From Cupriavidus respiraculi (GTDB taxonomy: Bacteria; Pseudomonadota; Gammaproteobacteria; Burkholderiales; Burkholderiaceae): a stretch of 64,000 nt of DNA. Each line of letters opens with the position of its first letter. Position 1 is the first letter of the stretch. Below are positions 45,971 through 64,000 of the stretch, piece after piece. Location of the stretch: positions 992,001-1,056,000 of the forward strand of contig NZ_CAJZAH010000002.1 of assembly GCF_914271545.1 (NCBI RefSeq), in the 5' to 3' direction. The notes under the pieces are model-generated. The model was given only the letters and a program-made list of their open reading frames with translations, was not told where the DNA came from and did not search any database. The position numbers and the translations under genes were made by a program.

Positions 45971-46121
45971 TTCGGTCCCCGCGGCGTTTTCCGATATATT
46001 CGGGAAGTCCCCGGGCCGGGACGGCCGCGGGGAACGCTTTTCGACGATGCCCGCTCCAACCGGGCGAGCCAACCGTCAGCGGGCTCCCCGCCCGCCGCCC
46101 CGCCCGGCGGACCCGCCAAGC

Positions 46122-46778: not shown

Positions 46779-47578
46779 GCGCACCGCCGCCACCGCAACA
46801 GAGCCGCCGCGACCGCGCCGCGGCGCGGCAGGCCGCGCTGCGCCGCTCGCGCGAGCTGGCCGCCGGCGTCGTGGCGGGCCTGGCCGACGACGACGAGCGC
46901 GTACCCATTCCCAACGTTCCGACCGCGACCTCGATGGGCCTGGTGTCCTGCCACGCCTGCGACGCGGTCAGCCCCCGAGAGCTCGAGGGCACGCCGTGCC
47001 CGCGCTGCGGCGCGACGCTGCACCGGCGCAAGACCGACAGCCTGGCGCGCACCTGGGCCTTCCTGCTGGCGGCATTCATCCTCTATATCCCGGCCAACGT
47101 GCTGCCGATCATGGTGACGCAGTCCATCCTCGGCACGCAGGAGGACACCATCATGTCGGGCGTGATCTATCTGTGGGTCACGGGCTCCCATCTGCTCGCC
47201 ATCGTGGTGCTGATCGCCAGCATCGTGGTGCCGCTGCTGAAAATGATGATTCTGACGTTCCTGCTGTTGTCGGTGCATTTCCGCTCGACGTGGCGACTGC
47301 GCCAGCAGACGCGGCTCTACACCCTGGTGGAGCTGATCGGCCGCTGGTCGATGCTCGATATCTTCGTGGTCGCGCTGCTGGCGGCGCTGGTGCGCGCCGG
47401 CGCGCTCGCCACGGTCATTCCGGGCAGCGGCGCCGCCGCCTTCGGCATGGTGGTGGTGCTGACCATGCTGGCGTCCCTGTCCTTCGATCCGCGCCTGCTG
47501 TGGGACGCGCACGACGCGCGCGCGACGCTGCCCTCTCCGACGAGCTCCGGCTCCCATCCCCATCCCAACGATGCCTGA
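46775..47578 (+). CDS. pqiA: Paraquat-inducible protein A, second unit
   Basis: A 267-residue PqiA-family protein. After an Arg-rich cytoplasmic tail comes a zinc ribbon (CHAC...CPRC, about residues 59-77) and four helices (about 90-250), with SILGTQEDTIMSGVIYLWVTGSHLLAIVVLI typical of the second PqiA domain. It overlaps the upstream gene by ATGA and the downstream pqiB by 8 nt, so all are translationally coupled. Confidence 0.92.
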   Translation: MSAPPPPQQSRRDRAAARQAALRRSRELAAGVVAGLADDDERVPIPNVPTATSMGLVSCHACDAVSPRELEGTPCPRCGATLHRRKTDSLARTWAFLLAAFILYIPANVLPIMVTQSILGTQEDTIMSGVIYLWVTGSHLLAIVVLIASIVVPLLKMMILTFLLLSVHFRSTWRLRQQTRLYTLVELIGRWSMLDIFVVALLAALVRAGALATVIPGSGAAAFGMVVVLTMLASLSFDPRLLWDAHDARATLPSPTSSGSHPHPNDA

Positions 47579-49205: not shown

Positions 49206-49840
49206 CCCATCGCATCGTTTCGCCGCTGCCGCGCCACGCCCGCTGGCTCAGCGCCATCGCGGCCGCCACGCTGCTTGCCGCGTGCGCTTCGCCGGAACCC
49301 CGGCTCTATACGCTGGCGGCCGGCGCCGAGCCTGCGTCCGCGGCCGCCACGGCAGCGTCCCCCACAGCCGCGCAACCGGTCTGGATCGAGGTCGCACCCG
49401 TGCGCGTGCCCGAGCGCCTCAACCGCAAGCAGCTGGTGGTGCGGGACGGAGGCGGCGATGCGCTGACCCTGCTGGAGCAGTCGCGCTGGTCCGCGCCGTT
49501 GCCGGACGAACTGCGCGATGCGCTGTCGCAGCGCCTGCAGGTGGTGCTCGGCGCGGTCGATGTCTATCAGCAGGGTCTGTCGGACGTGCAGCCGCTGTAC
49601 CGCGTCACCACCGAGGTCATCCGCATGGACGCCGAGCTGGGGCAGCGCGCGGCGGCCACCATCAACTGGACCGTGCGGCGCCTGCCGGACGGCAAGATGG
49701 TCGCGGGCCGCACGCAGGCCGACTTGCCCGCGCCCGGCGGCGCGGAAGGCGTGGTGGCGGCGTATCGGCAGGTGGTGAACAACACGGCCGCCGATATCGC
49801 TGCGGCGATGGACGGGTTGCGATTGAACGCGGCGCGTTGA
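49202..49840 (+). CDS. pqiC: PqiC-like lipoprotein (ABC-type transport auxiliary)
   Basis: A 212-residue protein with a lipoprotein signal ending LLAAC (lipidated Cys near 29) and an ABC_trans_aux-type domain starting RLYTLAAG. It matches PqiC (YmbA), which anchors the PqiB tube at the outer membrane. It overlaps pqiB by ATGA-like 4 nt and ends the operon. Confidence 0.93.
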   Translation: MTHRIVSPLPRHARWLSAIAAATLLAACASPEPRLYTLAAGAEPASAAATAASPTAAQPVWIEVAPVRVPERLNRKQLVVRDGGGDALTLLEQSRWSAPLPDELRDALSQRLQVVLGAVDVYQQGLSDVQPLYRVTTEVIRMDAELGQRAAATINWTVRRLPDGKMVAGRTQADLPAPGGAEGVVAAYRQVVNNTAADIAAAMDGLRLNAAR

Positions 49841-50227: not shown

Positions 50228-51130
50228 ATGATCATCGACACCAGCTGTTATCCGACGAACCTGGTGGACCTGGCCTGGCGCCACGATGGCGACCCGTTCA
50301 CCGGCGAGCGCCTGATCCAGATGATGGATGGCCCGTTCACGATCAACGGCAAGCCGCGCCGCATCGACAAGGCCTTTATCCAGCCGCCGCAGGGCAACAC
50401 GATCTACACCTTCACCGACGGCGAGAAGTCGGGCGCCGAATCGATCGACGCGTACATGGCCTACACCGTCGAGATGGTGCGCAAGTACCCGGACCGGCTG
50501 ATCGGCTGCTTCGTCTACAACCCGCGCTGCGGCGTGGAGAACGGCGTCAACGCGATCGAGCACTACGTCACGAAGCTCGGCTTCAAGATGGTCCAGTTCC
50601 AGGCCAACATGCACGCCTACCGGCCGGATCGCGCGCTGGACTGGCTGCGCCCGGCGCTGCAGAAATGCGCCGAGCTCGGCGTGCTGGTCAAGCTGCATAC
50701 CGGCGACGGTCCCTACAGCATTCCCACCGAATGGGTGCCGATGATCAAGGAATTTCCCACGGTCAATTTCATCATGGCCCACTTCGGCGTGCAGACCGGC
50801 GGCGTCTACTGCTTCGAGCCGTTCCAGATGGCGATGGACATGCCCAACGTCTATTGCGAATCGGCCTGGTGCCTGCAATCGCGCATCGTCGAGTTCGCCA
50901 AGGTGCTGCCCAAACACAAGATCCTCTTTGGTTCCGACACCCCGCCCAACGAACCGGGCATGTGGCTGCGCCTGCTGGAAGTGCTGTGTTTCGAGCCGCC
51001 GCAGGGCCTGAACCTGGACGAAGACACGCTGGAGGACTACCTGGGCAACAACCTGGCCCGCATGATCGGCCTGGAGCCGACGCCGGTACCGCGCACGCTC
51101 GAAGAAGCGCAGGCGCGCCTGGCGGCGTGA
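50228..51130 (+). CDS. Amidohydrolase-2 family protein with altered metal motif
   Basis: A 300-residue protein of the amidohydrolase-2 (ACMSD/decarboxylase-like) family, an alpha/beta barrel. The usual N-terminal HxH metal ligands are absent: MIIDTSCYPT replaces the paralogue's MIIDTHLHPT, so His6 and His8 become Ser and Tyr. Later ligands are kept: His in LHTGDGP, His in MAHFG, Asp in GSDTPP. It resembles the next gene closely along its whole length. It may be a partner subunit or have a changed catalytic site. ATG 50228 is used; an upstream frame start is not supported. Function in a decarboxylation/hydrolysis step is inferred. Confidence 0.92.
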   Translation: MIIDTSCYPTNLVDLAWRHDGDPFTGERLIQMMDGPFTINGKPRRIDKAFIQPPQGNTIYTFTDGEKSGAESIDAYMAYTVEMVRKYPDRLIGCFVYNPRCGVENGVNAIEHYVTKLGFKMVQFQANMHAYRPDRALDWLRPALQKCAELGVLVKLHTGDGPYSIPTEWVPMIKEFPTVNFIMAHFGVQTGGVYCFEPFQMAMDMPNVYCESAWCLQSRIVEFAKVLPKHKILFGSDTPPNEPGMWLRLLEVLCFEPPQGLNLDEDTLEDYLGNNLARMIGLEPTPVPRTLEEAQARLAA

Positions 51131-51185
51131 GGCCGGCGCACGTGCGCCACGCCCGCGCCAACGACAACGGATCCGGAGACACGAC

Positions 51186-52100
51186 ATGATCATCGATACC
51201 CATCTGCACCCCACCAATCTCGTCGACGAGGCCTGGCGCCACACCGGCGAGCCCTTCACCGGCGAACGCCTGCTCAAGATGATGGACGGCCCGTACATGA
51301 TCAACGGCAAGCCGCGCCGCATCGACATGGGCTTTATCCAGCCGCCGCCGGGCAACACCGGCTACCGCGACGGCAACCGCCGCGGCCGCGAAGGCATTCG
51401 CGACTACATGGCCTATGTCGCCAGCCTGTGCCAGAAGTACCCCGACCGCTTCATCGGCAACTTCACCTTCAACCCGCGCTGGGGCCCGGAGGAAGGCGCG
51501 CAGGAGCTGGAATTCCATATCCGGGAATATGGCTTCAAGATGGTCAAGCTGCATGCCAACATGCACGGCTACCGGCCGGACCGTGCGCTGGACTGGCTGC
51601 GTCCCGCGATGAAGGTCTGCGCCAAGTACAACACGGTCGTGCTGATTCACACCGGCGACGGGCCCTACACCATCCCGACGATGTTCTACCCGGTGATCCG
51701 CGAATTCCCGATGGTCAATTTCATCATCGGGCACTTCGGCATCCAGACCGGCGGCAACTATTCGTTCGAGGCGTTCTGGATGGCGATGGACACGCCCAAT
51801 GTCTATTGCGAATCGGGCTGGTGCTTCCAGTCGCGCATCGTCGAGTTCGCGCGGCAGCTGCCGCGCAACAAGATCGTGTTCGGCACCGACACGCCGCCCA
51901 ACGAGCCGGGCATGTGGCTGCGCGAGCTGGAGATGCTGTGCGGTCCGGCGCCGCAGGGCATGGACCTGGACGAGGACGGGCTGGAGGACTACATGGGCAA
52001 CAACATCGCCCGGCTGGTCGGCATCGAGCCGACCGCTCCGCCGAAGACGCAGGAGGAGGCCCAGGCACGGCTCAAGGACACCTACGCCAGTACGCGGTAG
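51186..52100 (+). CDS. Amidohydrolase-2 family protein (metal-dependent hydrolase/decarboxylase)
   Basis: A 304-residue paralogue of the preceding gene with the intact metal set: DTHLHPT (His6, His8), HTGDGP, IGHFG and GTDTPP. The family includes non-oxidative decarboxylases such as ACMSD, gamma-resorcylate decarboxylase and isoorotate decarboxylase, and lactone or C-C hydrolases. With UbiD and a molybdenum hydroxylase nearby, a role in breakdown of an aromatic or heteroaromatic acid is likely. RBS GGAGAC precedes the ATG. A zinc chaperone (CobW-like) lies at the cluster end. Confidence 0.93.
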   Translation: MIIDTHLHPTNLVDEAWRHTGEPFTGERLLKMMDGPYMINGKPRRIDMGFIQPPPGNTGYRDGNRRGREGIRDYMAYVASLCQKYPDRFIGNFTFNPRWGPEEGAQELEFHIREYGFKMVKLHANMHGYRPDRALDWLRPAMKVCAKYNTVVLIHTGDGPYTIPTMFYPVIREFPMVNFIIGHFGIQTGGNYSFEAFWMAMDTPNVYCESGWCFQSRIVEFARQLPRNKIVFGTDTPPNEPGMWLRELEMLCGPAPQGMDLDEDGLEDYMGNNIARLVGIEPTAPPKTQEEAQARLKDTYASTR

Positions 52101-52179
52101 CCCTTCTCGCCGCTCCAGCAGTTCCTTTCGCAGTTCTTTCCGCAGGCAGGCATGGCACGGTGGCCGGGCGATCCGGCCG

Positions 52180-52200
52180 CCGGGGCAGCCTTCGCCCCGG
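52180..52200. other. Intra-operon hairpin before the UbiD gene
   Basis: CCGGGGC (52180-52186) and GCCCCGG (52194-52200) over a 7-nt loop. No T-run, so it may protect or attenuate the message rather than terminate it. Confidence 0.4.
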
Positions 52201-52225
52201 CAACCCCAGAGCACAGGAGCCGAGC

Positions 52226-53677
52226 ATGAACTCGCCCACCGCGCCTCGCCCCGTCCAGGCCCCGCCGGCCGCGGCATCCCCGCCGTTCCGCGATACCTCG
52301 CAGGACTTCCATCAATTCCTCGCCGCCTATCGCGAGGCCTTTCCCGACGACGTCCTGCATATCCGCGAGCCGGTGGGCGCCAACCAGGATCCCACCGCAC
52401 TGGTGTGGGCGCTGGCCGCGCAGGGCCGCCATCCCGCGCTGGTCTTCGACCGCGTCGACGGCCTGGGCGCGCCGCTGGTGACGAATCTGTTCGCCTCGCG
52501 CGAACGCGTGGGCCGCATGCTGGGCGGCGTGCCGCCGGCGGGCATCCACGCGGAATACCAGGCGCGCAGCCGCCGCATGGTGGCGCCGCGCGTGCAGGAC
52601 AGCGGCGCGGTCACGGCGCGCGTGCAGACGCACGACATCGACCTGCGCGGCATTCCCGCGATCCAGCATTTCGCCAGCGATCGCGGGCCGTACATCACCA
52701 ACGCCATCCTGATCGCCGAGGACCCGGACACGGGCATCGGCAACGCCAGCTATCACCGCTCGATGCTGCACTCGCCGACGGAGATCGCCACCAGCCTGCA
52801 TTCGCGCGGCCACCTGTGGCGCATGTTGCAGCGGGCCACCGAACTCGGGCGGCCGCTGCCGGTGGCGATGGTGATCGGGGCCCATCCGCTGTTCATGCTG
52901 GCCGGCGCCGCGCGGCTGCCTTTCGGCGTCGACGAGCGCCACGTGGCCGGCGGCCTGTTCGGCGCGCCGCTGGAGGTCGTGCGCACGCCGTGCCACGGCA
53001 TCCTCGTGCCGGCGCACGCGGAGATCGTGCTCGAAGGCGTGATCGATCCGCACGCGCGCGTCGACGAAGGTCCGTTCGGCGAGTTCACCGGCTATTCGTC
53101 GGACCGCTCCACCAACAATCTGCTGCGGGTGCAGAGCGTGATGCGGCGCGCCGATGCGTGGCTGGTCGACGTGGTCGGCGGCAATTCCGCCGAGCACCTG
53201 AACCTCGGGCGCATTCCCCGGGAATCGGAGATGGTGGAGAAGCTGCGCGAGCGCTTCCCCGGCGTCACCGCCGTGCACTACCCCAGCTCGGGCACGCATT
53301 TCCACGCCTACGTCGCGCTGCGGCAGACGCGTCCGGGCGAGGCGCGCCAGGTCATGCTGGGCCTGCTGGGATGGGATCCCTACCTGAAGACGGTGGTGGC
53401 GGTCGACGAGGACGTGGACATCACGCGCGACGAGGAAGTGCTGTGGGCCATGGCCACGCATCTGCAGCCGCACCTGGACGTGGTGGTGATCGACGGCCTG
53501 CCCGGCAGCGCGCTCGACCCATCCGCCTCCGGCGTGGGCACCACGTCCCGCATGGGGCTGGACGCCACGCGCGGGCCGTCGTTCGACGGCGTGCGCGCGC
53601 GCATCGACGGGGCGGCCATGGAACGGGCCGCGGCGCTGCTGGCGCGGCTGGACCGTGGCGGCGCGCACGGACCCTAG
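52226..53677 (+). CDS. UbiD family (prenyl-FMN-dependent) decarboxylase
   Basis: A 483-residue enzyme of the UbiD superfamily, which uses prenylated FMN to decarboxylate unsaturated or aromatic acids. The signature EGPFGEFTGYSSD with the catalytic Glu and the cofactor-loop region ITNAILIAEDPDTG are present, as is LEGVIDPHARVD. RBS AGGAG precedes the ATG at 52226. The needed UbiX-type synthase is encoded at 60939. HmfF-like or phenolic-acid decarboxylases are relatives; the actual substrate is not clear. It follows the two amidohydrolase genes. Confidence 0.93.
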   Translation: MNSPTAPRPVQAPPAAASPPFRDTSQDFHQFLAAYREAFPDDVLHIREPVGANQDPTALVWALAAQGRHPALVFDRVDGLGAPLVTNLFASRERVGRMLGGVPPAGIHAEYQARSRRMVAPRVQDSGAVTARVQTHDIDLRGIPAIQHFASDRGPYITNAILIAEDPDTGIGNASYHRSMLHSPTEIATSLHSRGHLWRMLQRATELGRPLPVAMVIGAHPLFMLAGAARLPFGVDERHVAGGLFGAPLEVVRTPCHGILVPAHAEIVLEGVIDPHARVDEGPFGEFTGYSSDRSTNNLLRVQSVMRRADAWLVDVVGGNSAEHLNLGRIPRESEMVEKLRERFPGVTAVHYPSSGTHFHAYVALRQTRPGEARQVMLGLLGWDPYLKTVVAVDEDVDITRDEEVLWAMATHLQPHLDVVVIDGLPGSALDPSASGVGTTSRMGLDATRGPSFDGVRARIDGAAMERAAALLARLDRGGAHGP

Positions 53678-53694
53678 GGATAACCCCCTTGAAA

Positions 53695-53733
53695 CGGCGG
53701 ATTCATCGTTAAACCCGATCGATAAATCCGCCG
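53695..53733. promoter_or_regulatory. Long inverted repeat upstream of the permease, LysR-type operator candidate
   Basis: CGGCGGATT (53695-53703) and AATCCGCCG (53725-53733) form perfect 9-bp arms over 21 bases; allowing mismatches, the match extends to 13 of 16. The right half, CGATCGATAAATCCG (53716-53730), recurs as CGATCAATTAATCCG at 57203-57217 in front of the molybdenum hydroxylase genes. Confidence 0.65.
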
Positions 53734-53906
53734 CGACCGTTGTACCCTCCCGCCGCGGCTGCAATGCTGGACTCAGCGACGACACAGGCGCGGGCATCGC
53801 GACAAGGATGGCGACGACCATCCCGCACAGGAAACCGCCGGCGATACCGAAGGGCGACGAGACGCACCGCGGCGCGACCGGCGTGGTACCGACCAAAGGA
53901 GACAGC

Positions 53907-55298
53907 ATGAACCCCACCATGCCCGCGCAAGGGACGAGCCCCGTGCATCCCGTCGACGAAGTCCTGCCACCCACCCGGTTGCTCGCCCTCGGGTTGCAGC
54001 ACGTGTTGGTCATGTACGCCGGCGCCATCGCCGTGCCCATGATCATCGGCGGCGCACTCAAGCTGCCCAAGGACCAGATCGCCTTTCTGATCGCCGCGGA
54101 CCTCTTCTGCTGCGGCCTCGTGACGATGATCCAGAGCATCGGCATCTGGAAGGTCGGCATCCGCCTTCCCGTGATGATGGGCGTGACCTTCACCGCCATC
54201 GCCCCGATCATCGCCACCGGCTCCAACCCCGCGCTGGGCCTGCCGGCCGTCTTCGGCGCGGTGATGGTCGCCGGCATCTTCACCTGCATCGCCGCGCCGT
54301 ACGTCGGCAAGATGGTGCGCTGGTTCCCGCCGGTGGTGACGGGCACGGTGGTGCTGGTGATCGGCATCTCGCTGATGCGCGTGGGCATCAACTGGGCCGC
54401 GGGCGGCAATCCGACGCTCAACACGGCGGCCGGTCCCGTGCCCAATCCGGAGTTCGGCGTGCCCGCGAACATCGCCATCGCCACCGCGGTGCTGTGCACG
54501 GTGCTGGCGCTGGTGGCCTTCGCGCGCGGCTTCCTGTGCAACGTGGCGGTGCTGATCGGCATCGGCGTGGGCTTCGCCATCGCGCTGTCGCTGGGCAAGG
54601 TCAGCTTCGACGGCCTGCACAACGCGCGCTGGGTCGAGTTCATCACGCCCTTCCACTTCGGCTGGCCGACCTTCGACGCCATGACTGCGGTCACGCTGTG
54701 CGTGGTGATGATGGTCATCATGATCGAGGGCGTGGGCCAGTTCCTCGCGCTGGGCGAGATCGTCGGCCGGCGGATCGGGCCGGACGATCTGGCACGCGGG
54801 CTGCGGGCGGACGGGGTGGGCGCGCTGGTCGGCGCCGTCTTCAACACCTTCACCTACACCTCCTACGCGCAGAACGTGGGACTGGTGCAGGTCACCGGCG
54901 TGCGCAGCCGCTGGGTCTGCGCCACGGCCGGCGGCCTGCTGGTGGTGCTGGGGTGCCTGCCCAAGCTGGCTTTCTTCGCCGCCTCGATCCCGCAGTACGT
55001 GCTGGGCGGCGCGGCGCTGGTGATGTTCGGCATGGTGGCGGCGACGGGCGTGCGCATCCTCGGCCATGTGGACTTCGTCGAGAACAAGAAGAACGCCTAC
55101 ATCGTCGCGGTCAGCGTGGCGCTGGGCATGATCCCGCTGGTCTCGGACAAGTTCTTCTCGAAGATGCCGGAGCTGCTGGCCAAGTTCTGCCAGAACGGCA
55201 TCCTGCTCGGCACGCTGACGGCGGTGCTGCTGAACCTGCTGTTCAATGCGCGCTCGCCCGCGCCGCAGCCCCACGCGCTGGCCAAGGAAGCGGCCTGA
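53907..55298 (+). CDS. NCS2 family nucleobase/aromatic permease (xanthine/uracil permease-like)
   Basis: A 463-residue inner-membrane symporter with fourteen expected helices and the NCS2 pattern: GLQHVLVMYAGAIAVPMIIGGAL, QSIGIWKVGIRLPVMMGVTFTAI, NTFTYTSYAQNVGLVQVTGVRSRW. NCS2 members take up purines, pyrimidines, ascorbate or urate-like heterocycles. AAAGGAGAC precedes the ATG. Together with UbiD and the molybdenum hydroxylase it suggests that a ring compound related to a nucleobase or heteroaromatic acid enters the cell here. A LysR gene follows after 7 nt. Confidence 0.93.
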   Translation: MNPTMPAQGTSPVHPVDEVLPPTRLLALGLQHVLVMYAGAIAVPMIIGGALKLPKDQIAFLIAADLFCCGLVTMIQSIGIWKVGIRLPVMMGVTFTAIAPIIATGSNPALGLPAVFGAVMVAGIFTCIAAPYVGKMVRWFPPVVTGTVVLVIGISLMRVGINWAAGGNPTLNTAAGPVPNPEFGVPANIAIATAVLCTVLALVAFARGFLCNVAVLIGIGVGFAIALSLGKVSFDGLHNARWVEFITPFHFGWPTFDAMTAVTLCVVMMVIMIEGVGQFLALGEIVGRRIGPDDLARGLRADGVGALVGAVFNTFTYTSYAQNVGLVQVTGVRSRWVCATAGGLLVVLGCLPKLAFFAASIPQYVLGGAALVMFGMVAATGVRILGHVDFVENKKNAYIVAVSVALGMIPLVSDKFFSKMPELLAKFCQNGILLGTLTAVLLNLLFNARSPAPQPHALAKEAA

Positions 55299-55305
55299 GC
55301 GCGCC

Positions 55306-56208
55306 ATGCTGCATCCGCCCCGTGTGTATCTGTACCTGGACGCCGTCGCGCGCTGCGGCTCCATCCGCAAGGCCGCCGAGCAGCTGCACGTGGCCTCGAC
55401 CGCGCTGAACCGCAAGATCCTCGAGGTCGAGGAACACGTGGGCACCGCGCTGTTCGAGCGGCTGCCGCGCGGCGTGCGTCCGACCGCCGCCGGCGAAGTG
55501 CTGGTGGCCACCATCCGGCGCGGGCTGGCCGACCTCGATGCGGCGGCCACGGAGATGGAGCAGTTGCGGGGACTGGTGCGCGGCACCGTGCGGGTGGGCT
55601 CGGTGGAATCGGTGGCCGCCGACTTCCTGCCCGAGGCCATCGGCTGTTATCAGGACCAGCATCGCGGTGTGCGATTCCACGTCGCCGTCGGCGGCACCGC
55701 CGAGCTGCTGGCCGCGCTGCGCGAGGACGAAGTCGACCTGCTGCTGGCGCACGACCCGCCTCCCTCGCCCTTCCTGCACGAGCTCGCGGTCTCGTCGCAG
55801 CCATTCTGCGCGATGATGCGGCCCGACCATCCGCTGGCCGGCCGGCGCGGGCTGCACCTGGCCGACTGCCAGCCCTATCCGGTGGCGCTGGGCCCGGAGT
55901 CCTTTGGCAGCCGCCGCGCGATCGAGGCCATCTGCGCGCGCAACCGGCTGAACCTGCGCGTCATGCTGGAGGCCACCACGGTGGAAATGCTCAAGGGCTT
56001 CGCGCGCCGGACCGGCGCCATCTGCTTCCAGTTCCACGCCGGCACCCTGCGCGAGGCGCGCCAGGGCACGCTGATTTCGGTGCCGCTGTCCGACCCCGAG
56101 CTGTCGATGGGCCGGCTGGTGCTGGGCGCACGCACCGGGCGCGCATTGCCGCCCGCCGCGGCCGCGTTCGCCGAGCACCTGAAGGCCGCGATGGAGGGGC
56201 TGCGCTAG
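55306..56208 (+). CDS. LysR family transcriptional regulator (cluster, downstream of permease)
   Basis: A 300-residue LysR regulator. HTH is at 5-65 (YLYLDAVARCGSIRKAAEQLHVASTALNRKILEVEEHVGTALFER), though GSIRKAA is less canonical, and the effector domain covers residues 90-300. It starts 7 nt after the permease stop, so it is co-transcribed with it, an unusual position for a LysR gene. Its stop overlaps the convergent second LysR gene by 4 nt. It probably senses a pathway compound. Confidence 0.92.
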   Translation: MLHPPRVYLYLDAVARCGSIRKAAEQLHVASTALNRKILEVEEHVGTALFERLPRGVRPTAAGEVLVATIRRGLADLDAAATEMEQLRGLVRGTVRVGSVESVAADFLPEAIGCYQDQHRGVRFHVAVGGTAELLAALREDEVDLLLAHDPPPSPFLHELAVSSQPFCAMMRPDHPLAGRRGLHLADCQPYPVALGPESFGSRRAIEAICARNRLNLRVMLEATTVEMLKGFARRTGAICFQFHAGTLREARQGTLISVPLSDPELSMGRLVLGARTGRALPPAAAAFAEHLKAAMEGLR

Positions 56209-57119
56209 CGCAGCCGGCCCCGTTCGCGCATCAGCAGGTCGCGAAAGCGCTGCGCCGGCGGCGACAGCGAACGGTCCGCGTGCACCAGCAGCGAGATCTC
56301 GCGCTCGATCACCGGGTCGCTCGGCATGACGGTGGCCAGCCCCAGCGCGGACGTCAGTCGCGTCACCGCCGCGCTCATCACGGCGATGCCCAGGCCCGCA
56401 TCCACCATGCCCACCATGGTCAGCGGCAGCAGCACCTCGTGCAGGCGCGACAGCGTGATGCCGCGCGCGGCGAGCGCCGCATCGAGGCAGTCGCGGATCG
56501 GGTTGCCCTTGTGCGGGCCGATCACCGGAATGGCCGCCACATTCTCCCAGCGCAGCGCCTTGCGCCGCAGCAGCGGATGGTCCGCCGGCATCACGATCAC
56601 GAAGGGGTCGGTCATCAGCCGGTGCGCGCTCAGGTCCGGCTGCCCTTCCGGAATGGTGCCGATGCCGAAGTCGACTTCGCCCGAACTGACCATCTTGGGC
56701 ACCTCGTGCTCCGACACGTCGTGCAACTCCACCTTGACGCCGGGATGGCCCACGCAGAACTCGCGGATAAAGCGCGGCAGCATGAGCGCCGCCTGGATGG
56801 ACGAGGCCGCGATCGACACGCGCCCCCTGCCCAGCGTGCGCAGCTCGCTGGAGTTCTCGATCACGCTGTCGATATCGGCCACGGCCTTCTTGACCAGCGG
56901 CAGCAGCTCGGCGCCGGCCTGCGTGATATGCAGCTGGCGGGTATGGCGGTCGAACAGCCGCAGTCCCAGATTGCCTTCGAGTTCGTGGATGAGCGCGCTG
57001 ACCGAGGACTGCGACAAGTCCAGCCGCTCCGCCGCGCGCGTGAAATGGCGCTCCTGCGCCACGGCGATGAACGCGCGCAGCTGGCGCAGCGACACGTTCA
57101 TGTTGCTCAGTTGGGGCAC
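56205..57119 (-). CDS. LysR family transcriptional regulator (divergent from molybdenum hydroxylase operon)
   Basis: A 304-residue LysR regulator with a good HTH (LRQLRAFIAVAQERHFTRAAERLDLSQSSVSALIHELEGNLGLRLFDR). GTG 57119 is preferred because GGAGGAG lies five bases upstream; ATG 57101 has no ribosome site. It is divergent from the FAD-binding subunit gene with about 200 nt between, the classical LysR position, and this gap holds the motif shared with the permease promoter. It is the likeliest controller of the cluster. Confidence 0.94.
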   Translation of the reverse strand: MPQLSNMNVSLRQLRAFIAVAQERHFTRAAERLDLSQSSVSALIHELEGNLGLRLFDRHTRQLHITQAGAELLPLVKKAVADIDSVIENSSELRTLGRGRVSIAASSIQAALMLPRFIREFCVGHPGVKVELHDVSEHEVPKMVSSGEVDFGIGTIPEGQPDLSAHRLMTDPFVIVMPADHPLLRRKALRWENVAAIPVIGPHKGNPIRDCLDAALAARGITLSRLHEVLLPLTMVGMVDAGLGIAVMSAAVTRLTSALGLATVMPSDPVIEREISLLVHADRSLSPPAQRFRDLLMRERGRLR

Positions 57120-57202
57120 GGTGTCTCCTCCGTGGTATCGGGATGCGCGCTCTGTGCGGGCGAATGCCATATCGCGCGGCGCGTCTGATTCAGAGGGTAA
57201 CA

Positions 57203-57217
57203 CGATCAATTAATCCG
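57203..57217. promoter_or_regulatory. LysR box candidate before the molybdenum hydroxylase operon
   Basis: CGATCAATTAATCCG matches CGATCGATAAATCCG at 53716-53730 in 13 of 15 positions. It sits in the divergent gap between the LysR gene and the hydroxylase genes and contains the palindromic core ATTAAT. Confidence 0.6.
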
Positions 57218-57317
57218 TTTCGCTCCCTTTACCGATGTAGCGCGCCCGCCCATCATCGACTCGACGGTGCCCGGCGACATACCACGCCGCGCCCGGCGGC
57301 AACGAGGGGGAGAAGCG

Positions 57318-58190
57318 ATGAGAGCGTTTGACTATTTCGAACCGGCAACGCTGGCCGAGGCCTCGGCCATGCTGCACCGGAGCGGCGGCCGGGCCAGCGT
57401 GCTGGCGGGCGGCACCGATCTGCTGGTGCAGATCAAGGAGTCGGTACGCGCGCCGGCGCAGGTGATCAACATCAAGAAGATCCCGGGCATGGACATGCTG
57501 GCCTTCGATGCCGCCGCCGGGCTGCGCATCGGCGCGCTGGTGACCACGCGCGCGGTCGAGACGAGCGGCTTCGTGCAGCGCCACTATGCCGGCCTTGCAC
57601 GCGCGGTAACGGACTTCGCCTCGATCCAGGTGCGCCATCGCGCGACCGTGGTGGGCAACGTCTGCCGCGCGTCGCCGTCCGCGGATTCGCTCGCGCCGCT
57701 GATCGCCGATGGCGCCTCGGTCCATCTGTACGGCCTGTCGGGCTCGCGCGCGATGCGGATCGAGGACTTCGTCACCGGCGCGGGCCGCACCGCCATCGCC
57801 GCGGACGAGATCGCGACGCGCCTGACCGTGCCGGCACCGGCGCCGCATACCGGCAAGGTCTACCTCAAGCATGGGCGCCGCGTGCAGATGGAGCTCGCGA
57901 CGGTGGGCGTGGCGGTATCGCTGACTGTCAACGAAGGCCGCTGCACCGAGGTCGGCATCGTGCTGGCCGCCGTCGGGCCCACGCCGGTACGCGCGGTCCA
58001 CGCCGAGCAGTTGCTGCGCGGACAGCGCGTGACCGACGCGCTGATCCTGCAGGCGGCACACGCCGCCGCCGGTGACGCGCGACCGATCAGCGACGTGCGC
58101 GCCAGCGCATCGTACCGGCGGCAGATGGTCGGCGTGCTGACCCGCCGCGCCCTCGAACAAGCCATGGAGGCCGCCACATGCGCACCATGA
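57318..58190 (+). CDS. Molybdenum hydroxylase, FAD-binding medium subunit
   Basis: A 290-residue subunit of the CoxM/HbcrB type. The FAD sites are AGGTDLL (about 34-40) and TVVGNVCRASPSAD (about 111-124), followed by the C-terminal CO-dehydrogenase flavoprotein domain. It passes electrons between FAD and the [2Fe-2S] subunit. ATG 57318 follows a GA-rich ribosome site. It overlaps the small subunit gene by 13 nt, so expression is coupled. Confidence 0.94.
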   Translation: MRAFDYFEPATLAEASAMLHRSGGRASVLAGGTDLLVQIKESVRAPAQVINIKKIPGMDMLAFDAAAGLRIGALVTTRAVETSGFVQRHYAGLARAVTDFASIQVRHRATVVGNVCRASPSADSLAPLIADGASVHLYGLSGSRAMRIEDFVTGAGRTAIAADEIATRLTVPAPAPHTGKVYLKHGRRVQMELATVGVAVSLTVNEGRCTEVGIVLAAVGPTPVRAVHAEQLLRGQRVTDALILQAAHAAAGDARPISDVRASASYRRQMVGVLTRRALEQAMEAATCAP

Positions 58191-58669
58191 TCCAGCTGGT
58201 CATCAACGACGAGCCGCGCGAACTGGCGGTGGAGCCCCACGGCACGCTGCTGGACGCGCTGCGCAACGACGCGTGCCTGACCGGCACCAAGAAGGGCTGC
58301 GACGTCGGGGAATGCGGCTCGTGCACCGTCATCGTGGACGGCCGCCCGGTGAACGCGTGCCTGATGCTCGCACCCGAGGCGCACGGCTGCCACGTGACCA
58401 CCATCGAAGGCGTGCAGCCCGCGCCCGGCGCCGTGCATCCGATCCAGGAGCAGTTCATGCAATGCGGCGCGGCCCAGTGCGGCTTCTGCACGCCGGGCTT
58501 CGTGGTCATGTCCAAGGCACTGCTGGACGAGAACCCGCATCCGACCCGCGACGACATCCGCTTCGCCATCGCCGGCAATATCTGCCGCTGCACCGGCTAC
58601 ACCAAGATCGTCGAGGCCATCGAGAAGGCCGCCGCGGCGATGGCCGGCACCGGCAAGGAGGCATCATGA
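58178..58669 (+). CDS. Molybdenum hydroxylase, [2Fe-2S] small subunit
   Basis: A 163-residue iron-sulfur subunit. The plant-type cluster is bound by Cys41, Cys46, Cys49 and Cys61; the helical cluster by Cys101, Cys104, Cys136 and Cys138 (CGFCTPG, CRCTGY). It is cytoplasmic and lacks a Tat signal. Overlap of 13 nt with the upstream gene and ATGA with the next. Confidence 0.96.
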   Translation: MRTMIQLVINDEPRELAVEPHGTLLDALRNDACLTGTKKGCDVGECGSCTVIVDGRPVNACLMLAPEAHGCHVTTIEGVQPAPGAVHPIQEQFMQCGAAQCGFCTPGFVVMSKALLDENPHPTRDDIRFAIAGNICRCTGYTKIVEAIEKAAAAMAGTGKEAS

Positions 58670-60942
58670 GCCACGCCGTGATCGGACACAGCGTCAAGCG
58701 CACCGACCTGCTCGACAAGGTCACCGGCAACGCCAAGTACGTCGCCGACATGCCGTTCCCCGGACTGCTGTTCGGCAAGCTCAAGCGCTGCGACGTGGCG
58801 CACGCGCGCATCCGCCGCATCGACGCCACGCGCGCGCTCGCGCTGCCGGGAGTCAGGGCGGTGCTGACGCACGAGAACGTGCCACGCGTGCTGCATGCGG
58901 GCTCGCCCCACCCGCGCTCCGCGTCGGTGACATGCGACCAGTACATCCTCGACGACAAGGTGCGCTACTGGGGCGAGGGCGTGGCCGCGGTGGCCGCCGT
59001 CAGCGAGGAAGTCGCCGCGCGCGCCGTCGAACTGATCGAGGTCGAGTACGACGTGCTGCCGGCGGTGTTCACCACCGACGATGCCGAGCGCCCGGAGGCG
59101 CCGCGCATCCACGACCGCGAACCGGGCGGCAACCTGGTGCTGCCGCCGGTGATCGTGCGTCGGGGCGACGTCGAAGCGGGCTTCGCCGAGGCCGACCTGA
59201 TCGTGGAAGGCGTCTACGAAGGCGGCCGTCCCACGCCGGCCTACATGGAGCCCAATGTCTGCACCTGCAACTGGGACGGCAACGGCAACCTCACCGTGTG
59301 GATCTCGACGCAGACCGCCTTCATGGTGCGCGGCATCATGGCCGAGGTGCTGGGCCTGCCGCTGCACAAGGTGCGCGTGCTGGTCGACCACATGGGTGGC
59401 GGCTTCGGCGCCAAGCAGGACCTCTTCCAGCACGAGTTCCTGTGCGCGCTGCTGGCGCGGGAGACGCGCCGGCCCGTGCGGATGGAATACACGCGCGAGG
59501 AAACGTTCGTCGGCGGACGCACGCGCCACCCGGCCAGGATCTGGCTGAAGCAGGGCTTTCGCCGCGACGGCACCATCACCGCGCGCCAGGCCAGGGTCGT
59601 CTTCAACTCCGGCGCCTACGGCTCGCATGGTCCCGGCGTGACCAATGTCGGCACCGCGGCGCTGGTGTCGCTGTACCGCTGCGACAACGTGCTGCTGGAG
59701 GGGCGCTGCGTCTACACCAACAGTCCCATCGCGGGCGCGTTCCGGGGCTACGGCGTGGTACAGACGTATTACGCGCTCGACGTGCAGATGGACGAGGCCG
59801 CCGCGCAGCTCGGCATGGATCCCGCCGAGCTCAAGCTCCGGAACGCGGTGCGCGATGGCGATATCGCACCGTCCAACCATCCGCTGATCGGCCACGGGCT
59901 CGAAGCCTGCATCCGCAAGGGCATGGAGATCGTCGACTGGCCCGCGCTGCGGCGGCGCCCGCGCGAGACCGCGGGGCCCATCCGCACCGGCTGGGGACTG
60001 GGCTGCGAGATGCATGGCAGCAGCGCCTACCCCGGCATCAAGGAGCAGGGCAACGCCATCATCAAGATGAACGAGGACGGCACCGTGGTGCTGCTGACCG
60101 GCGCGGCGGGCCTGGGCACGGGCGCCCATACCGCGCTGGCGCAGATCGTCGCCGAGGAACTGACGCTGCCGTTCGAGGCGGTGTCGGTGGTCCACGGCGA
60201 CACCGACGTGGTGCCGTGGGACATCGGCGCCTTCGCCAGCCACACCACGTACATGGTCGGCAAGGCAGCGCAGATGGCGGCGGGCGAGATCCGGCGCCAG
60301 CTGTTCGAGCGCGCGGCGAAGCTGCTCGAGTGCGAACCCGACGCGCTGACGCTGGCCGCCGGGCGGATCGCGGTGCGCGACCGCGAGGGGCCGGCGCTGA
60401 CGGTGCGCGAGGCGGTGATGCCGCGCAAGGGCATTCCGGCCGCGCAACTGGTGGGCACCGCGACCTACCATCCCACCAAGTCGTACTCGTTCGCCGCGCA
60501 CTTCGTCGAGGTGGCCGTCGATACCGAGACCGGTTTCATCACCGTGCGCCAGGTGGTGCCGGTGCACGACGTGGGCAAGGTCATTCACCCCGTCGCCGCC
60601 GCCGGCCAGATCGAAGGCGGCATCCAGCAGGGCATCGGCCATACGCTGTACGAGGACTACCAGATCGACATGCGCACCGGCCGCTCGCTGAACGCCAACT
60701 TCGTCGACTACAAGATGCCGCTGGCGATGGACATGCCGCCCATCCACACCGTGCTGCTCGAGGCAGCCCCCGACCCCGGCGGCCCGTTCGGCGCCAAGGG
60801 CGTGGGCGAGGACCCCATCGTCGCGATCGGCCCGGCCATCGCCAACGCGGTGTTCGATGCCATCGGTGTGCGGTTCCGCCACTACCCGATCCGGCCGGAG
60901 CAGGTGCTGCAGGCGCTGGCCGAACAGGCGGGCGCGCGATGA
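58666..60942 (+). CDS. Molybdenum hydroxylase, large catalytic subunit
   Basis: A 758-residue subunit that binds the molybdopterin cofactor and hydroxylates a ring or acyl-CoA carbon with water-derived oxygen. Motifs: GGGFGAKQD, GAFRGYGVVQ, and the catalytic Glu in GAKGVGEDP near residue 710. The subunit architecture is that of CO-dehydrogenase, 4-hydroxybenzoyl-CoA reductase and nicotinate or furoyl-CoA hydroxylases. CODH's AYRCSFR loop is absent, so CO is not the substrate. No CoA ligase is near, so a free heteroaromatic acid or nucleobase-like compound is more likely. Confidence 0.95.
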   Translation: MSHAVIGHSVKRTDLLDKVTGNAKYVADMPFPGLLFGKLKRCDVAHARIRRIDATRALALPGVRAVLTHENVPRVLHAGSPHPRSASVTCDQYILDDKVRYWGEGVAAVAAVSEEVAARAVELIEVEYDVLPAVFTTDDAERPEAPRIHDREPGGNLVLPPVIVRRGDVEAGFAEADLIVEGVYEGGRPTPAYMEPNVCTCNWDGNGNLTVWISTQTAFMVRGIMAEVLGLPLHKVRVLVDHMGGGFGAKQDLFQHEFLCALLARETRRPVRMEYTREETFVGGRTRHPARIWLKQGFRRDGTITARQARVVFNSGAYGSHGPGVTNVGTAALVSLYRCDNVLLEGRCVYTNSPIAGAFRGYGVVQTYYALDVQMDEAAAQLGMDPAELKLRNAVRDGDIAPSNHPLIGHGLEACIRKGMEIVDWPALRRRPRETAGPIRTGWGLGCEMHGSSAYPGIKEQGNAIIKMNEDGTVVLLTGAAGLGTGAHTALAQIVAEELTLPFEAVSVVHGDTDVVPWDIGAFASHTTYMVGKAAQMAAGEIRRQLFERAAKLLECEPDALTLAAGRIAVRDREGPALTVREAVMPRKGIPAAQLVGTATYHPTKSYSFAAHFVEVAVDTETGFITVRQVVPVHDVGKVIHPVAAAGQIEGGIQQGIGHTLYEDYQIDMRTGRSLNANFVDYKMPLAMDMPPIHTVLLEAAPDPGGPFGAKGVGEDPIVAIGPAIANAVFDAIGVRFRHYPIRPEQVLQALAEQAGAR

Positions 60943-61526
60943 ACCGCCTGGTGGTGGCCATCACCGGCGCGAGCGGCGCGGTCTACGGCGTGCGGCTGCT
61001 GCAGGCGCTGGCCGCGCTGGACGGCTGGCAGACGCATCTGGTCTGCTCGCCGTCCGGCCTGCTGACCGCACATCACGAGCTGGGCATGCAGCGCCCGCAG
61101 ATCGAGGCGCTGGCCGATGTGGTGCACAACGTGCGCGATATCGGCGCGACCATCGCCAGCGGCTCGTTCCGCTGCGACGGCATGGTGGTGGCGCCGTGCT
61201 CGATGCGCACGCTTGCGGCCATCGCCACCGGCATGGCCGACAACCTGGTCACCCGCGCCGCCGACGTCATGCTCAAGGAGCGGCGCCGCCTGGTGCTGCT
61301 CGCGCGCGAGACGCCCCTTCATCTGGTGCACCTGCGCAACATGACCACCGTCACCGAGATGGGCGCCATCGTGCTGCCGCCGGTGCCGGCCTTCTACGCG
61401 CACCCGCGCACCGTGGACGACATCGTCGACCACACCGTGGGGCGGGTGCTCGATCTGTTCGACGCGCCGCACCAGGGACTCGTGCGGCGCTGGCAGGGCC
61501 TGCGGTCCGAGGCCGGCGCAGCCTGA
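60939..61526 (+). CDS. UbiX-type flavin prenyltransferase
   Basis: A 195-residue enzyme that makes prenyl-FMN, the cofactor of UbiD enzymes, from FMN and dimethylallyl phosphate. The signature ITGASGAVYGVRLLQAL, MVVAPCSMRTLAAIATG, DNLVTRAADVMLKERRRLVLLARETPLHL are all family hallmarks. It overlaps the molybdenum hydroxylase large subunit by ATGA, an odd coupling given that its client, UbiD, is 7 kb away in the other arm of the cluster. It is likely dedicated to that UbiD. Confidence 0.95.
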   Translation: MNRLVVAITGASGAVYGVRLLQALAALDGWQTHLVCSPSGLLTAHHELGMQRPQIEALADVVHNVRDIGATIASGSFRCDGMVVAPCSMRTLAAIATGMADNLVTRAADVMLKERRRLVLLARETPLHLVHLRNMTTVTEMGAIVLPPVPAFYAHPRTVDDIVDHTVGRVLDLFDAPHQGLVRRWQGLRSEAGAA

Positions 61527-61578
61527 ACAACCTTTCGCCTCGCCGCGGCGAGGAACGCAGCACCAACCGGGAGATCCC

Positions 61579-62703
61579 ATGCAACCCTCCACCGTCGCCA
61601 CCCAGCGGCCCGTCCCCGTCACGATCCTCACCGGCTTTCTCGGCGCGGGCAAGACCACGCTGCTGAACCACATCCTGACGCAGAAGCACGGCCACCGCAT
61701 CGCCGTGATCGAGAACGAGTTCGGCGAGGTCGATGTCGATTCCGATCTCGTGATGACCTCCGACGAGGAGATCTACCAGATGACCAACGGCTGCATCTGC
61801 TGCGTGGTGGACGTGCGCACCGACCTCGTGCGCATCCTGCAGACGCTGCTGGAGCGCCCCGAGCGCTTCGACCACATCCTGGTGGAGACCAGCGGACTGG
61901 CCGACCCCACGCCGGTGGCGGCCACCTTCTTCATGGACAACGAGGTGGCGCGGCAGGTAGCGCTCGACGGCATCCTGACGCTGGTGGACGCCGTCCATAT
62001 CGAGGACCATCTCGACGATCCGCAACTGAGCGGCTTCGACAACCAGGCGGTGGACCAGATCGTGGCCGCGGACCGCATCATCCTGAACAAGACCGACCTG
62101 GTCGACGCGGACCGGCTCGATGCGCTGGAGGCGCGGCTGCACCGGCTGAACGAAGGCGCGCACATCCTGCGCTCGAACTACGCGCAGGTGGACCTCGGAA
62201 AGATCCTTGGCATCGGCGGATTCATGCCCGGCACGGCACCGGTGCAGGCGCACGGCGGAGCCGATGATCACGATCACGAACACGAACACGATCACGACGA
62301 CCACGACCACGACCACGGGCACGTCTGCGACGAGCATTGCGCACACGCCGGGCACCTGGACGGCGACGACGAACCCCATGGCCATCGCCATGACCCCTCG
62401 GTGACCTCCGTCTCGCTGGTGTTCGACCGGCCCTTCGACCGTCAGCGCCTGGAACACGGCCTGAAGGCGCTGCTGGCCGCGCAGGGCGACGATGTGTTCC
62501 GCATGAAAGGCATCGTCGCCATCGAGGGCGATGAACGCCGCCATGTGCTGCAGGCCGTCCACCGGCTGATGGACTTCCAGCCGGGCGCGCCTTGGGGCGG
62601 CGAAGCCGCGCACAGCAAGTTCGTCTTCATCGGCCGGCATCTGGACAGGCTGCGCCTGCAGGCGCTGCTGCAGGTGTGCCTGCCGGTGGCGCAAGCGGCC
62701 TGA
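61579..62703 (+). CDS. CobW/COG0523 family GTPase with His-rich loop (metallochaperone)
   Basis: A 374-residue G3E GTPase. Walker A is GFLGAGKTT (19-27), the metal motif GCICC (Cys72, Cys74, Cys75), base motif NKTD (170-173), and a His/Asp-rich loop (about 225-271) typical of zinc or nickel chaperones. A C-terminal CobW domain follows. Its place at the end of a cluster with metal-dependent amidohydrolases suggests it loads their zinc; other chaperones of this family serve nitrile hydratase or cobalamin synthesis. RBS GGGAG precedes the ATG. Confidence 0.93.
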   Translation: MQPSTVATQRPVPVTILTGFLGAGKTTLLNHILTQKHGHRIAVIENEFGEVDVDSDLVMTSDEEIYQMTNGCICCVVDVRTDLVRILQTLLERPERFDHILVETSGLADPTPVAATFFMDNEVARQVALDGILTLVDAVHIEDHLDDPQLSGFDNQAVDQIVAADRIILNKTDLVDADRLDALEARLHRLNEGAHILRSNYAQVDLGKILGIGGFMPGTAPVQAHGGADDHDHEHEHDHDDHDHDHGHVCDEHCAHAGHLDGDDEPHGHRHDPSVTSVSLVFDRPFDRQRLEHGLKALLAAQGDDVFRMKGIVAIEGDERRHVLQAVHRLMDFQPGAPWGGEAAHSKFVFIGRHLDRLRLQALLQVCLPVAQAA

Positions 62704-62718: not shown

Positions 62719-63717
62719 TCAGGGGCGCTGCGCGAGCAGCGTCTGCGACGGCAGCTCGCCGAACTCGCGCCGGTACTCGCGCGAGAACAGGCTCAGATGG
62801 GTAAAGCCGTGCGCCAGCGCGATCGCGCTGACCCGCCCCTTCTCCGGACGCGAGCGCAGCAGGTCCGCCCGCGCGCCATGCAAGCGCAGCAGCCGCAGAT
62901 AGGCCATCGGCGAGGTGTTCTTGGTCTTGCGGAAGCCCAGTTGCAACGTGCGCGCGGAGACGCCGCAGTGCGCGGCGATCTGTTCCAGCGTCAGCGGCTC
63001 GCCCAGGTGCGCGCGCAGATAGGCGATCGCGCAGCGCATGTAGTCGGGCAGCACCGCCTCGAAACGGCGCGGCAGCAGATCGCCGTCGGCGGCGAAGCGG
63101 TCCAGCAGCAGCGTCGACAGCACGATGCGCTCGATGCCGCCGTCCAGCGCCGGCATCTGCTTGCCCAGCTCGCCTTGCCTGAGCGCGCTCTCCGCGCGCA
63201 GGTAGTCCACCAGCGCGCGCCAGCGCGCCGCCCGGCCATCGTCCGCCACCGGCTGCATCGCGAATTCGATCGGCGCGGGCGGATCGAAGCTGAAGTGCTC
63301 GCGGAACGCCTGCTCGATCGCCTGCCGGCGGATCACTACGCTGAAGCGCTCGCAGCCGGCATCCAGCGACAGCCGGGCCGGCACGGTCGGCGAAAACACG
63401 AAGGTCGCGCCGGGCGGCATCGCCATGGTCCCGCACGCGGTCTCGACGCGGCACGTTCCCGCCAGCACGGTCTGGATCACGAACTCGTCCTTGCCCCACT
63501 GCGGCTCGATCTGCACCGCCTGGTTGTAGGCGATGGTGACCAGCCGCAGCCGTCCAATGGCGCAGGCATCGATGCGCGCATCGAGCGCGGCGTCGGCCTG
63601 CGCAGCGCGCAGGCGCACCGGCCCGAACACGCGCCCGGACAGCGACTGCACGCGCTCGACATCGCCCGCGCGGGGGGCGCCATGCCGTGCTGCGGACGGG
63701 GTGGAGACTGGAGTCAT
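62719..63717 (-). CDS. AraC family transcriptional regulator
   Basis: A 332-residue regulator with an N-terminal ligand-binding domain (AraC_binding_2-like, VTIAYNQAVQIEPQWGKDEF) and two C-terminal HTH motifs (LTLEQIAAHCGVSARTLQLGFRKTKNTSPMAYLRLLRLHGARADL and VSAIALAHGFTHLSLFSREYRREFGELPS). It is convergent with cobW and reads away from the window end, probably controlling a gene that starts just past 64000. Confidence 0.93.
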   Translation of the reverse strand: MTPVSTPSAARHGAPRAGDVERVQSLSGRVFGPVRLRAAQADAALDARIDACAIGRLRLVTIAYNQAVQIEPQWGKDEFVIQTVLAGTCRVETACGTMAMPPGATFVFSPTVPARLSLDAGCERFSVVIRRQAIEQAFREHFSFDPPAPIEFAMQPVADDGRAARWRALVDYLRAESALRQGELGKQMPALDGGIERIVLSTLLLDRFAADGDLLPRRFEAVLPDYMRCAIAYLRAHLGEPLTLEQIAAHCGVSARTLQLGFRKTKNTSPMAYLRLLRLHGARADLLRSRPEKGRVSAIALAHGFTHLSLFSREYRREFGELPSQTLLAQRP

Positions 63718-64000
63718 GTGGGGGGCACCGGTAGCGTCGCCATCCTAGGGTCGGGAGGCCGCCGCGCGCAAGTTGAGGGAAACCCCTGAGGCGATTTCCG
63801 GGCCAATGCGCCGCCCCGTTGCGGACGGATTCCATCGGCTTCGCTTTCGCGCTATCCGCACGCGGCGCGCCTCCCTATCGTCCATCCATGCGCCGGCCAG
63901 CGTGCCGCGCATGGCACCGTGACGGATCGAGCCCGGCGACGCAAGACCGGGCCAGCCGCCGCCGGCACGGCGCCCTTTTCCCCGGACGCGGCAGGAGACG
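63718..64000 (+). promoter_or_regulatory. Upstream region of a gene that begins beyond the window
   Basis: A 283-nt gap with no gene. The last bases, GGCAGGAGACG, are a typical ribosome site, so a plus-strand gene very likely starts within a few bases of the window end, divergent from the AraC regulator. Confidence 0.6.

Follow-up and report, generated by a model that had tools for sequence, protein, structure and literature searches.

A conserved gene cluster of Cupriavidus respiraculi with a probable role in the breakdown of pteridines to xanthine

Which compound is degraded by a bacterial gene cluster that combines UbiD and UbiX, a molybdenum (Mo) hydroxylase and a pair of amidohydrolases? 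Such a cluster begins at position 50228 of a 64,000-nucleotide stretch of Cupriavidus respiraculi DNA (contig NZ_CAJZAH010000002.1, positions 992,001 to 1,056,000; hereafter the window), in a host genome of 5.59 Mb. We propose that the conserved gene set probably serves to degrade pteridines, the ring family to which folate and insect pigments belong, to xanthine. The evidence comprises the gene content of the cluster, its linkage and conservation, the clade of a linked deaminase, and the xanthine dehydrogenase and OHCU decarboxylase genes that the same genome carries. Action on a pteridine or a near relative appears likely, the full reaction scheme from pteridine to xanthine falls somewhat short of an even chance, and no part of the pathway reading is proven from sequence alone.

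A linked deaminase of the isoxanthopterin clade

All 11 genes at 50228-62703 are intact, each a full open reading frame (ORF) with start and stop, and ORF and profile checks agreed with the initial annotation on gene content, order and strands. The end that it placed at 62703 did not hold, the cluster continuing to approximately 66780 (window numbering): behind an AraC-family gene come a second xanthine-type NCS2 permease and then a deaminase. The features are as follows.

50228..51130, plus strand: AH1, Amidohydro_2 (cog2159-type), with a DTSCYPT N-terminal motif and without HxH
51186..52100, plus strand: AH2, Amidohydro_2 with an HLH metal motif; proposed tetraoxypteridine cycloisomerase together with AH1
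52226..53677, plus strand: UbiD-family prenylated flavin mononucleotide (prenyl-FMN) decarboxylase; proposed to act on xanthine-8-carboxylate
53907..55298, plus strand: NCS2 permease a (pbuX/xanthine type), by profile match
55306..56208, plus strand: LysR regulator 1, by profile match
56205..57101, minus strand: LysR regulator 2, with 216 bp between it and the divergent Mo-hydroxylase operon
57318..58190, plus strand: MoM, flavin adenine dinucleotide subunit of the Mo hydroxylase, XdhB-like by profile match
58178..58669, plus strand: MoS, 2x[2Fe-2S] subunit of the Mo hydroxylase, XdhC-like by profile match
58666..60942, plus strand: MoL, molybdopterin subunit of the Mo hydroxylase, XdhA-like, with GGGFGAKQ, AFRGYG and GVGE motifs
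60939..61526, plus strand: UbiX flavin prenyltransferase, by profile match
61579..62703, plus strand: CobW-domain metallochaperone-type GTPase, with CICC and a His/Asp-rich stretch
62719..63717, minus strand: AraC-family regulator, between the cluster halves
63888..64000, plus strand: start of NCS2 permease b (pbuX type), which runs past the window to L120:3363
L120:3368-4780 (C2:1057368-1058780), outside the window: isoxanthopterin-deaminase-clade gene, directly behind permease b

The two LysR genes are convergent, their 3' ends overlapping by 4 bp, and MoM, MoS, MoL and UbiX are coupled by overlaps of 4-13 bp.

The idea of a pteridine substrate arose from known chemistry and from a deaminase in the same cluster on a Caballeronia plasmid (locus L115), whose nearest chain in the Protein Data Bank (PDB) is 2PAJ, and it was set down before the window's own genome was searched for a deaminase. 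That search gave a 66% match at C2:1057410-1058768, 1.4 kb past the window end. Among solved structures, the linked deaminase (COG0402) matches best 2PAJ, which we take to be an isoxanthopterin deaminase (9.5e-136, 457 bits), as against 2.7e-88 and 300 bits for 3HPA, presumably an 8-oxoguanine deaminase; with PRK12393 it scores 790 bits (cut-off 543). A maximum-likelihood tree with 28 rows, two loci being entered twice, split the linked deaminase, an unlinked paralogue and 2PAJ from 3HPA at 100/100, and 8-oxoguanine degradation was rejected because the linked enzyme falls outside the 3HPA clade. The linked deaminases of the Oxalobacteraceae and Variovorax grouped with 2PAJ (96/92), without a resolved order within the group. 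Two branches of the deaminase clade thus go with one module; this speaks for a pteridine as the substrate without singling one out. According to passages of PMC5270733, isoxanthopterin and pterin-6-carboxylate are both deaminated by enzymes that Hall et al. (2010) described, and their isoxanthopterin deaminase is cited again in a passage of PMC11121863.

The 2PAJ orthologue of this genome (contig 1, L143) is surrounded by ABC-transporter parts, a LysR gene and a ferredoxin-domain protein, a neighbourhood that gave no pathway clue. Directly behind the linked deaminase, on the minus strand, lies a gene for a nucleoside 2-deoxyribosyltransferase-domain protein (L120:4801-5304).

Conservation of the gene set and co-occurrence with the deaminase

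The initial annotation had suggested looking for the same gene set elsewhere, and it recurs widely. Genome contigs were scanned with AH2 and the best 80 of 241 relatives were kept, so that AH2 is present in 80/80 loci by construction, some loci being cut by contig ends. AH1 accompanies it in 79/80, UbiD in 80/80 (two at 41-42% identity), UbiX in 74/80 and CobW in 76/80; the gene set is conserved beyond chance. The twins and UbiD recur in Cupriavidus, Burkholderia, Pseudomonas, Oxalobacteraceae, Paracoccus, Sinorhizobium and others, and plasmid records that carry the twins include those of Paracoccus, Sinorhizobium, Ensifer and others. Among named loci, those of Cupriavidus are nearest (the scan listing may omit the window's own genome).

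A Mo hydroxylase of the window type occurs in 21/80 loci and an unlike, two-subunit Mo hydroxylase in 48/80 (some partial at the locus edge), never both together (0/80); 11/80 loci show neither within the DNA covered. In most Cupriavidus loci the UbiX-CobW pair follows the Mo hydroxylase; in loci of Burkholderia, Caballeronia, Paraburkholderia, Ralstonia and Pseudomonas (e.g. L049 and L115) it follows UbiD directly. Since the type of Mo hydroxylase and the place of UbiX-CobW change between lineages, the two arms seem to belong to one pathway. This bears out the initial annotation, which had joined both arms in what appears to be a single system for the catabolism of an imported N-heterocycle, working by Mo hydroxylation, prenyl-FMN decarboxylation and amidohydrolase chemistry.

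Among the loci with at least 20 kb of DNA, a deaminase is visible in 47/64. Of the remaining 17, four are from Paraburkholderia/Caballeronia/Burkholderia and two from Rhodoplanes; the other 11 are of the Cupriavidus type, one of them under the label Ralstonia sp. 25mfcol4.1, and here the DNA covered stops 10 kb from AH2, whereas the deaminase of such genomes lies 13-17 kb away. Across a family sample of 299 genomes, AH2 was present in 64 and a linked-type deaminase (at least 66% identity) in 63, with 62 genomes having both, two AH2 only and one the deaminase only (G089, a partial gene). Fisher's test for this co-occurrence gave 1.2e-60, a value that ignores kinship and depends on a 66% line drawn after the data were seen; 12 further family genomes with only 49-55% deaminase paralogues were left out of the count. 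The two genes share a contig in 57/62 genomes, 5.4-17.1 kb apart, and are on different contigs in 5/62. In a phylum sample of 398 genomes AH2 was found in four, and a deaminase of at least 68% identity in the same four; seven other genomes had 46-60% deaminase relatives and no AH2. Twelve loci were picked for a wider look, and the 10 that belong to whole genomes all have a family deaminase there, 49-68% identical.

Some loci carry additional genes. At L068, the sole Oxalobacteraceae locus examined, an ABC transporter with a Bmp/PnrA-type binding protein (NCBIfam 'B6' models below their cut-offs) lies between CobW and the deaminase, and no NCS2 permease was seen there. In many clusters of Burkholderia, Caballeronia and Paraburkholderia the deaminase is followed by a gene of the arylmalonate-decarboxylase/Asp-Glu racemase family (e.g. 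L115:22761-23549), which has no role in the proposed scheme. Beside the module on the Sinorhizobium megaplasmid is a cytosine-deaminase-like amidohydrolase (L116:26644-28038), below NCBIfam cut-offs, that might replace the deaminase.

Enzyme families and a possible route to xanthine

The three-subunit Mo hydroxylase of the initial annotation was confirmed, its assignment to the CoxMSL type was not: MoL scores 657 bits with the E. coli-type XdhA profile (cut-off 780) and 311-368 bits with CO dehydrogenase. With a second curated model of the xanthine dehydrogenase large subunit it reaches 312 bits (cut-off 849.5), a model with which a xanthine dehydrogenase elsewhere in the genome scores 1354 bits; an OHCU decarboxylase gene lies approximately 13 kb from the latter. 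We therefore rejected the window hydroxylase as the cell's xanthine dehydrogenase, given its sub-cut-off scores and the full-score enzyme elsewhere. The GGGFGGKE of the cell's own xanthine dehydrogenase reads GGGFGAKQ in MoL. Among 21 MoL orthologue matches, 20 have Gln in place of the Glu after GGGFGGK and 20 retain the AFRG arginine (in each case the motif of the remaining one was not recovered), and all 21 retain the glutamate of GVGE/GIGE. We take these three positions to be purine-binding and catalytic residues. A gene for ModA, the molybdate ABC transporter binding protein, lies approximately 7 kb beyond the deaminase (L120:12081-12884) and fits a Mo-dependent region.

UbiD has its N-terminal, middle and C-terminal Pfam domains all over cut-off and scores 277 bits with TIGR00148 (cut-off 244.85). 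Its closest solved relatives are HmfF (6H6X/6H6V, 235 bits) and then AnInD (164 bits), which act on furandicarboxylic acid and indole-3-carboxylic acid, respectively, according to passages of PMC8988006 that also name the conserved E(D)-R-E network of UbiD enzymes. R178, E281 and E286 of the window protein, picked by motif and not from a structure, align with identical HmfF residues, so that the network appears to be present. UbiX is over cut-off with both TIGR00421 and PRK06029. The CobW-domain GTPase matches Pfam cobW at 4.3e-57 and remains below the cut-offs of the NCBIfam CobW, PRK11537 and ZigA equivalog models.

That UbiD is nearest to HmfF, and that the enzyme types suit in outline, speaks for the substrate first suggested for this locus, an imported pyridine- or furan-like heteroaromatic acid that would be hydroxylated, decarboxylated by UbiD and opened by an amidohydrolase. 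Such a route leaves the co-occurring COG0402 deaminase and the xanthine-type permeases without a role, and the clade of the deaminase points to pteridines instead; we consider it very unlikely. As the initial annotation had observed, there is no CoA ligase, ring dioxygenase or maleate-like module; this holds for the whole stretch scanned, from 50228 up to and including the deaminase.

Another pteridine route would start from pterin-6-carboxylate, which the enzymes of Hall et al. (2010) also take (in a passage of PMC5270733). Here the deaminase would yield lumazine-6-carboxylate, the Mo hydroxylase would oxidise C7, UbiD would remove the 6-carboxylate and the amidohydrolases would open the ring hydrolytically. 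Decarboxylation of an imidazole-2-type carboxylate would be spared, but a second hydroxylation would be required to reach xanthine, no decarboxylase would be left for the later xanthine-8-carboxylate, and the nearest solved relatives of UbiD use acids of five-membered heteroaromatic rings. On balance we regard this route as unlikely.

AH1 and AH2 match the Amidohydro_2 profile at 4.8e-34 and 2.5e-46, and both contain the Amidohydro_2 barrel of cog2159 (ACMSD type), AH1 being a predicted ACMSD/IDCase-type barrel; a sequence search of the PDB with AH1 alone gave no match at 0.001. The pair named by the initial annotation is thus upheld, though not as two equivalents. At the HxH metal motif of the first strand, HLH is found in 67/67 distinct AH2 rows and SCY in 76/76 distinct AH1 rows; judged by these motifs AH1 has lost the HxH ligands, yet it retains the later His/His/Asp. 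Across 50 plasmid records, taken as a spread from 124, identities drop from 77% straight to 30% or less, suggesting that the clade of the twins is rather isolated.

In the scheme that we favour, for which we infer every substrate and the order of steps, the NCS2 permeases would import pterin or lumazine and the COG0402 deaminase would strip the 2-amino group. The Mo hydroxylase would oxygenate the pyrazine ring, converting 7-oxylumazine to 2,4,6,7-tetraoxypteridine, the pyrazine-dione of which AH1/AH2 would open at an amide and re-close as an imidazole to give xanthine-8-carboxylate (EC 5.5.1.3). Chemically, the N8-C7 amide would be hydrolysed, the freed amine would attack the adjacent carbonyl and water would be lost, leaving an imidazole with a C8 carboxylate. 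This mechanism was reasoned from the formula and known chemistry alone; tetraoxypteridine and xanthine-8-carboxylic acid are isomers, both C6H4N4O4 by hand calculation. UbiD, with prenyl-FMN from UbiX, would decarboxylate xanthine-8-carboxylate to xanthine, so that in this reading the carboxylate is made within the pathway and not imported. Xanthine would enter the cell's own xanthine dehydrogenase and urate pathway, and should be usable because the genome has a full-score xanthine dehydrogenase and an OHCU decarboxylase. The LysR and AraC proteins would regulate, and the CobW GTPase would supply metal to AH2 or the deaminase. The scheme is supported by the steps that McNutt reportedly described (deaminase, hydroxylase, amide-opening isomerase and decarboxylase), each of which matches one enzyme type here, and the pteridine reading by the xanthine type of the permeases, a and b scoring 538 and 474 bits with TIGR03173 (NCS2, xanthine type; cut-off 414).

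A more specific version, which we hold to be doubtful, makes AH1 and AH2 a heteromeric ring-contracting enzyme and UbiD the first purine-decarboxylating prenyl-FMN enzyme, acting at an imidazole-2-type carbon. AH2, with its intact metal site, would hydrolyse one amide of tetraoxypteridine, and AH1, its HxH lost but otherwise strictly conserved, would perform the cyclodehydration to xanthine-8-carboxylate; we infer this division of roles.

Several observations weigh against a pteridine pathway or single steps of it. The paralogue closest to 2PAJ is the unlinked one at C1:1701704 (721 bits, 69% identity); the linked deaminase is a 50% sister and not the 2PAJ orthologue, so its substrate may differ from that of 2PAJ. 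Two genomes, G137 and G229, have AH2 and no linked-type deaminase, the deaminase is on a different contig from the twins in both Rhodoplanes and in Paraburkholderia caffeinitolerans (L051), and none of the clade was found on the Paracoccus (L114) and Sinorhizobium (L116) plasmid records, only those records being searched. Neither Mo hydroxylase was seen in 6/64 loci with at least 20 kb. UbiX is missing at L076 and near both Rhodoplanes loci, and the UbiD of the latter two has only 41-42% identity. In passages of PMC7976604, the UbiD enzyme HudA does not turn over imidazole-2-carboxylate, an analogue of xanthine-8-carboxylate; prenyl-FMN does form an adduct at imidazole C2 (same source). No assay of any enzyme of the set was found in the literature. 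Lastly, the fold neighbours of the twins are mostly decarboxylases (ACMSD, isoorotate, dihydroxybenzoate), with no cycloisomerase among the 50 fold matches listed.

The twins might accordingly be cog2159 decarboxylases, forming a heteromer with AH1 as the HxH-less partner, with the second carboxylate of an acid resembling a purine or pyrimidine left to UbiD and another 2-amino-4-oxo heterocycle to the deaminase. Because 2-pyrone-4,6-dicarboxylate hydrolases and a hydratase share the same fold group, the fold does not decide the function of the twins, and no heterocycle that we can name suits two decarboxylases and one Mo hydroxylase; this alternative, too, seems improbable.

Elsewhere in the window, membrane genes of the paraquat-inducible type with PqiA, MlaD and ABC_trans_aux domains lie directly upstream of AH1 (46047-49840, plus strand). 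A second molybdopterin-binding protein with two MoCoBD domains and an IorB-like layout is encoded approximately 20 kb from the cluster (27565-29793, minus strand), and a CheA/Hpt-type hybrid histidine kinase of 1982 amino acids, with three Hpt stretches, CheW and receiver domains, at 5690-11638 (minus strand).

Significance and comparison with known systems

If the pteridine reading is true, a function would be found for genes that common bacteria of the soil and rhizosphere carry with no annotation beyond 'amidohydrolase family protein' or 'UbiD family decarboxylase', and pterins from folate breakdown, insect pigments and cofactors would be recycled to xanthine and nitrogen. It would also supply candidate genes for the ring-contracting enzyme of the orphan EC 5.5.1.3 and show that members of the amidohydrolase superfamily can contract rings and that prenyl-FMN chemistry reaches as far as a purine. 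The twins would be a further example of a conserved pair in which one member has a changed metal site. Should the heteromer version hold, pteridines would be turned into purines by a widespread route, and an orphan EC number would have its genes.

In the literature searched we found no description of a pathway that uses these genes together, in line with the initial annotation, and no bacterial pteridine catabolic gene cluster was among the matches listed in the open-access literature. EC 5.5.1.3 appears in Table 5 of a 2004 survey of orphan activities with the rank 'difficult' (in the part of PMC1940265 concerned) and, being entered there, had no known sequence in 2004; no later gene assignment was found in the open-access literature searched.

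The window enzyme resembles xanthine dehydrogenase (XdhABC) in its subunit layout, the GVGE glutamate and the Arg of AFRGYG, and differs from it in its sub-cut-off scores and in GGGFGAKQ for GGGFGGKE. The linked deaminase shares clade and family (PRK12393) with 2PAJ, but is only 50% identical to it, the 2PAJ orthologue of the genome being the second, unlinked copy. The twins are 10-22% identical to the cog2159 amidohydrolases (ACMSD, isoorotate decarboxylase, gamma-resorcylate decarboxylase and 2-pyrone-4,6-dicarboxylate hydrolase), whose HxH motif is missing from AH1.

The hmf (5-hydroxymethylfurfural/furoate) cluster reportedly comprises the HmfABC Mo hydroxylase and the UbiD/UbiX pair HmfF/HmfG. 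Our cluster likewise combines UbiD, UbiX and a three-subunit Mo hydroxylase, with a UbiD nearest to HmfF, but has twin amidohydrolases, xanthine-type permeases and a purine/pterin-type deaminase in place of the CoA ligase. The furoate pathway has a linked CoA ligase for furoate and was rejected because the stretch from 50228 through the deaminase gene encodes none. The picolinate, nicotinate and isonicotinate routes were rejected as well, since the scanned genes hold no maleamate-type module and the deaminase would go unexplained.

The closest parallel is biochemical. In the 1960s McNutt reportedly found that Alcaligenes faecalis degrades isoxanthopterin and 7-oxylumazine, with a tetrahydroxypteridine cycloisomerase (EC 5.5.1.3) that converts tetraoxypteridine to xanthine-8-carboxylate. 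The scheme proposed here resembles that pathway step by step, from deaminase and hydroxylase through amide-opening cycloisomerase and decarboxylase to xanthine.

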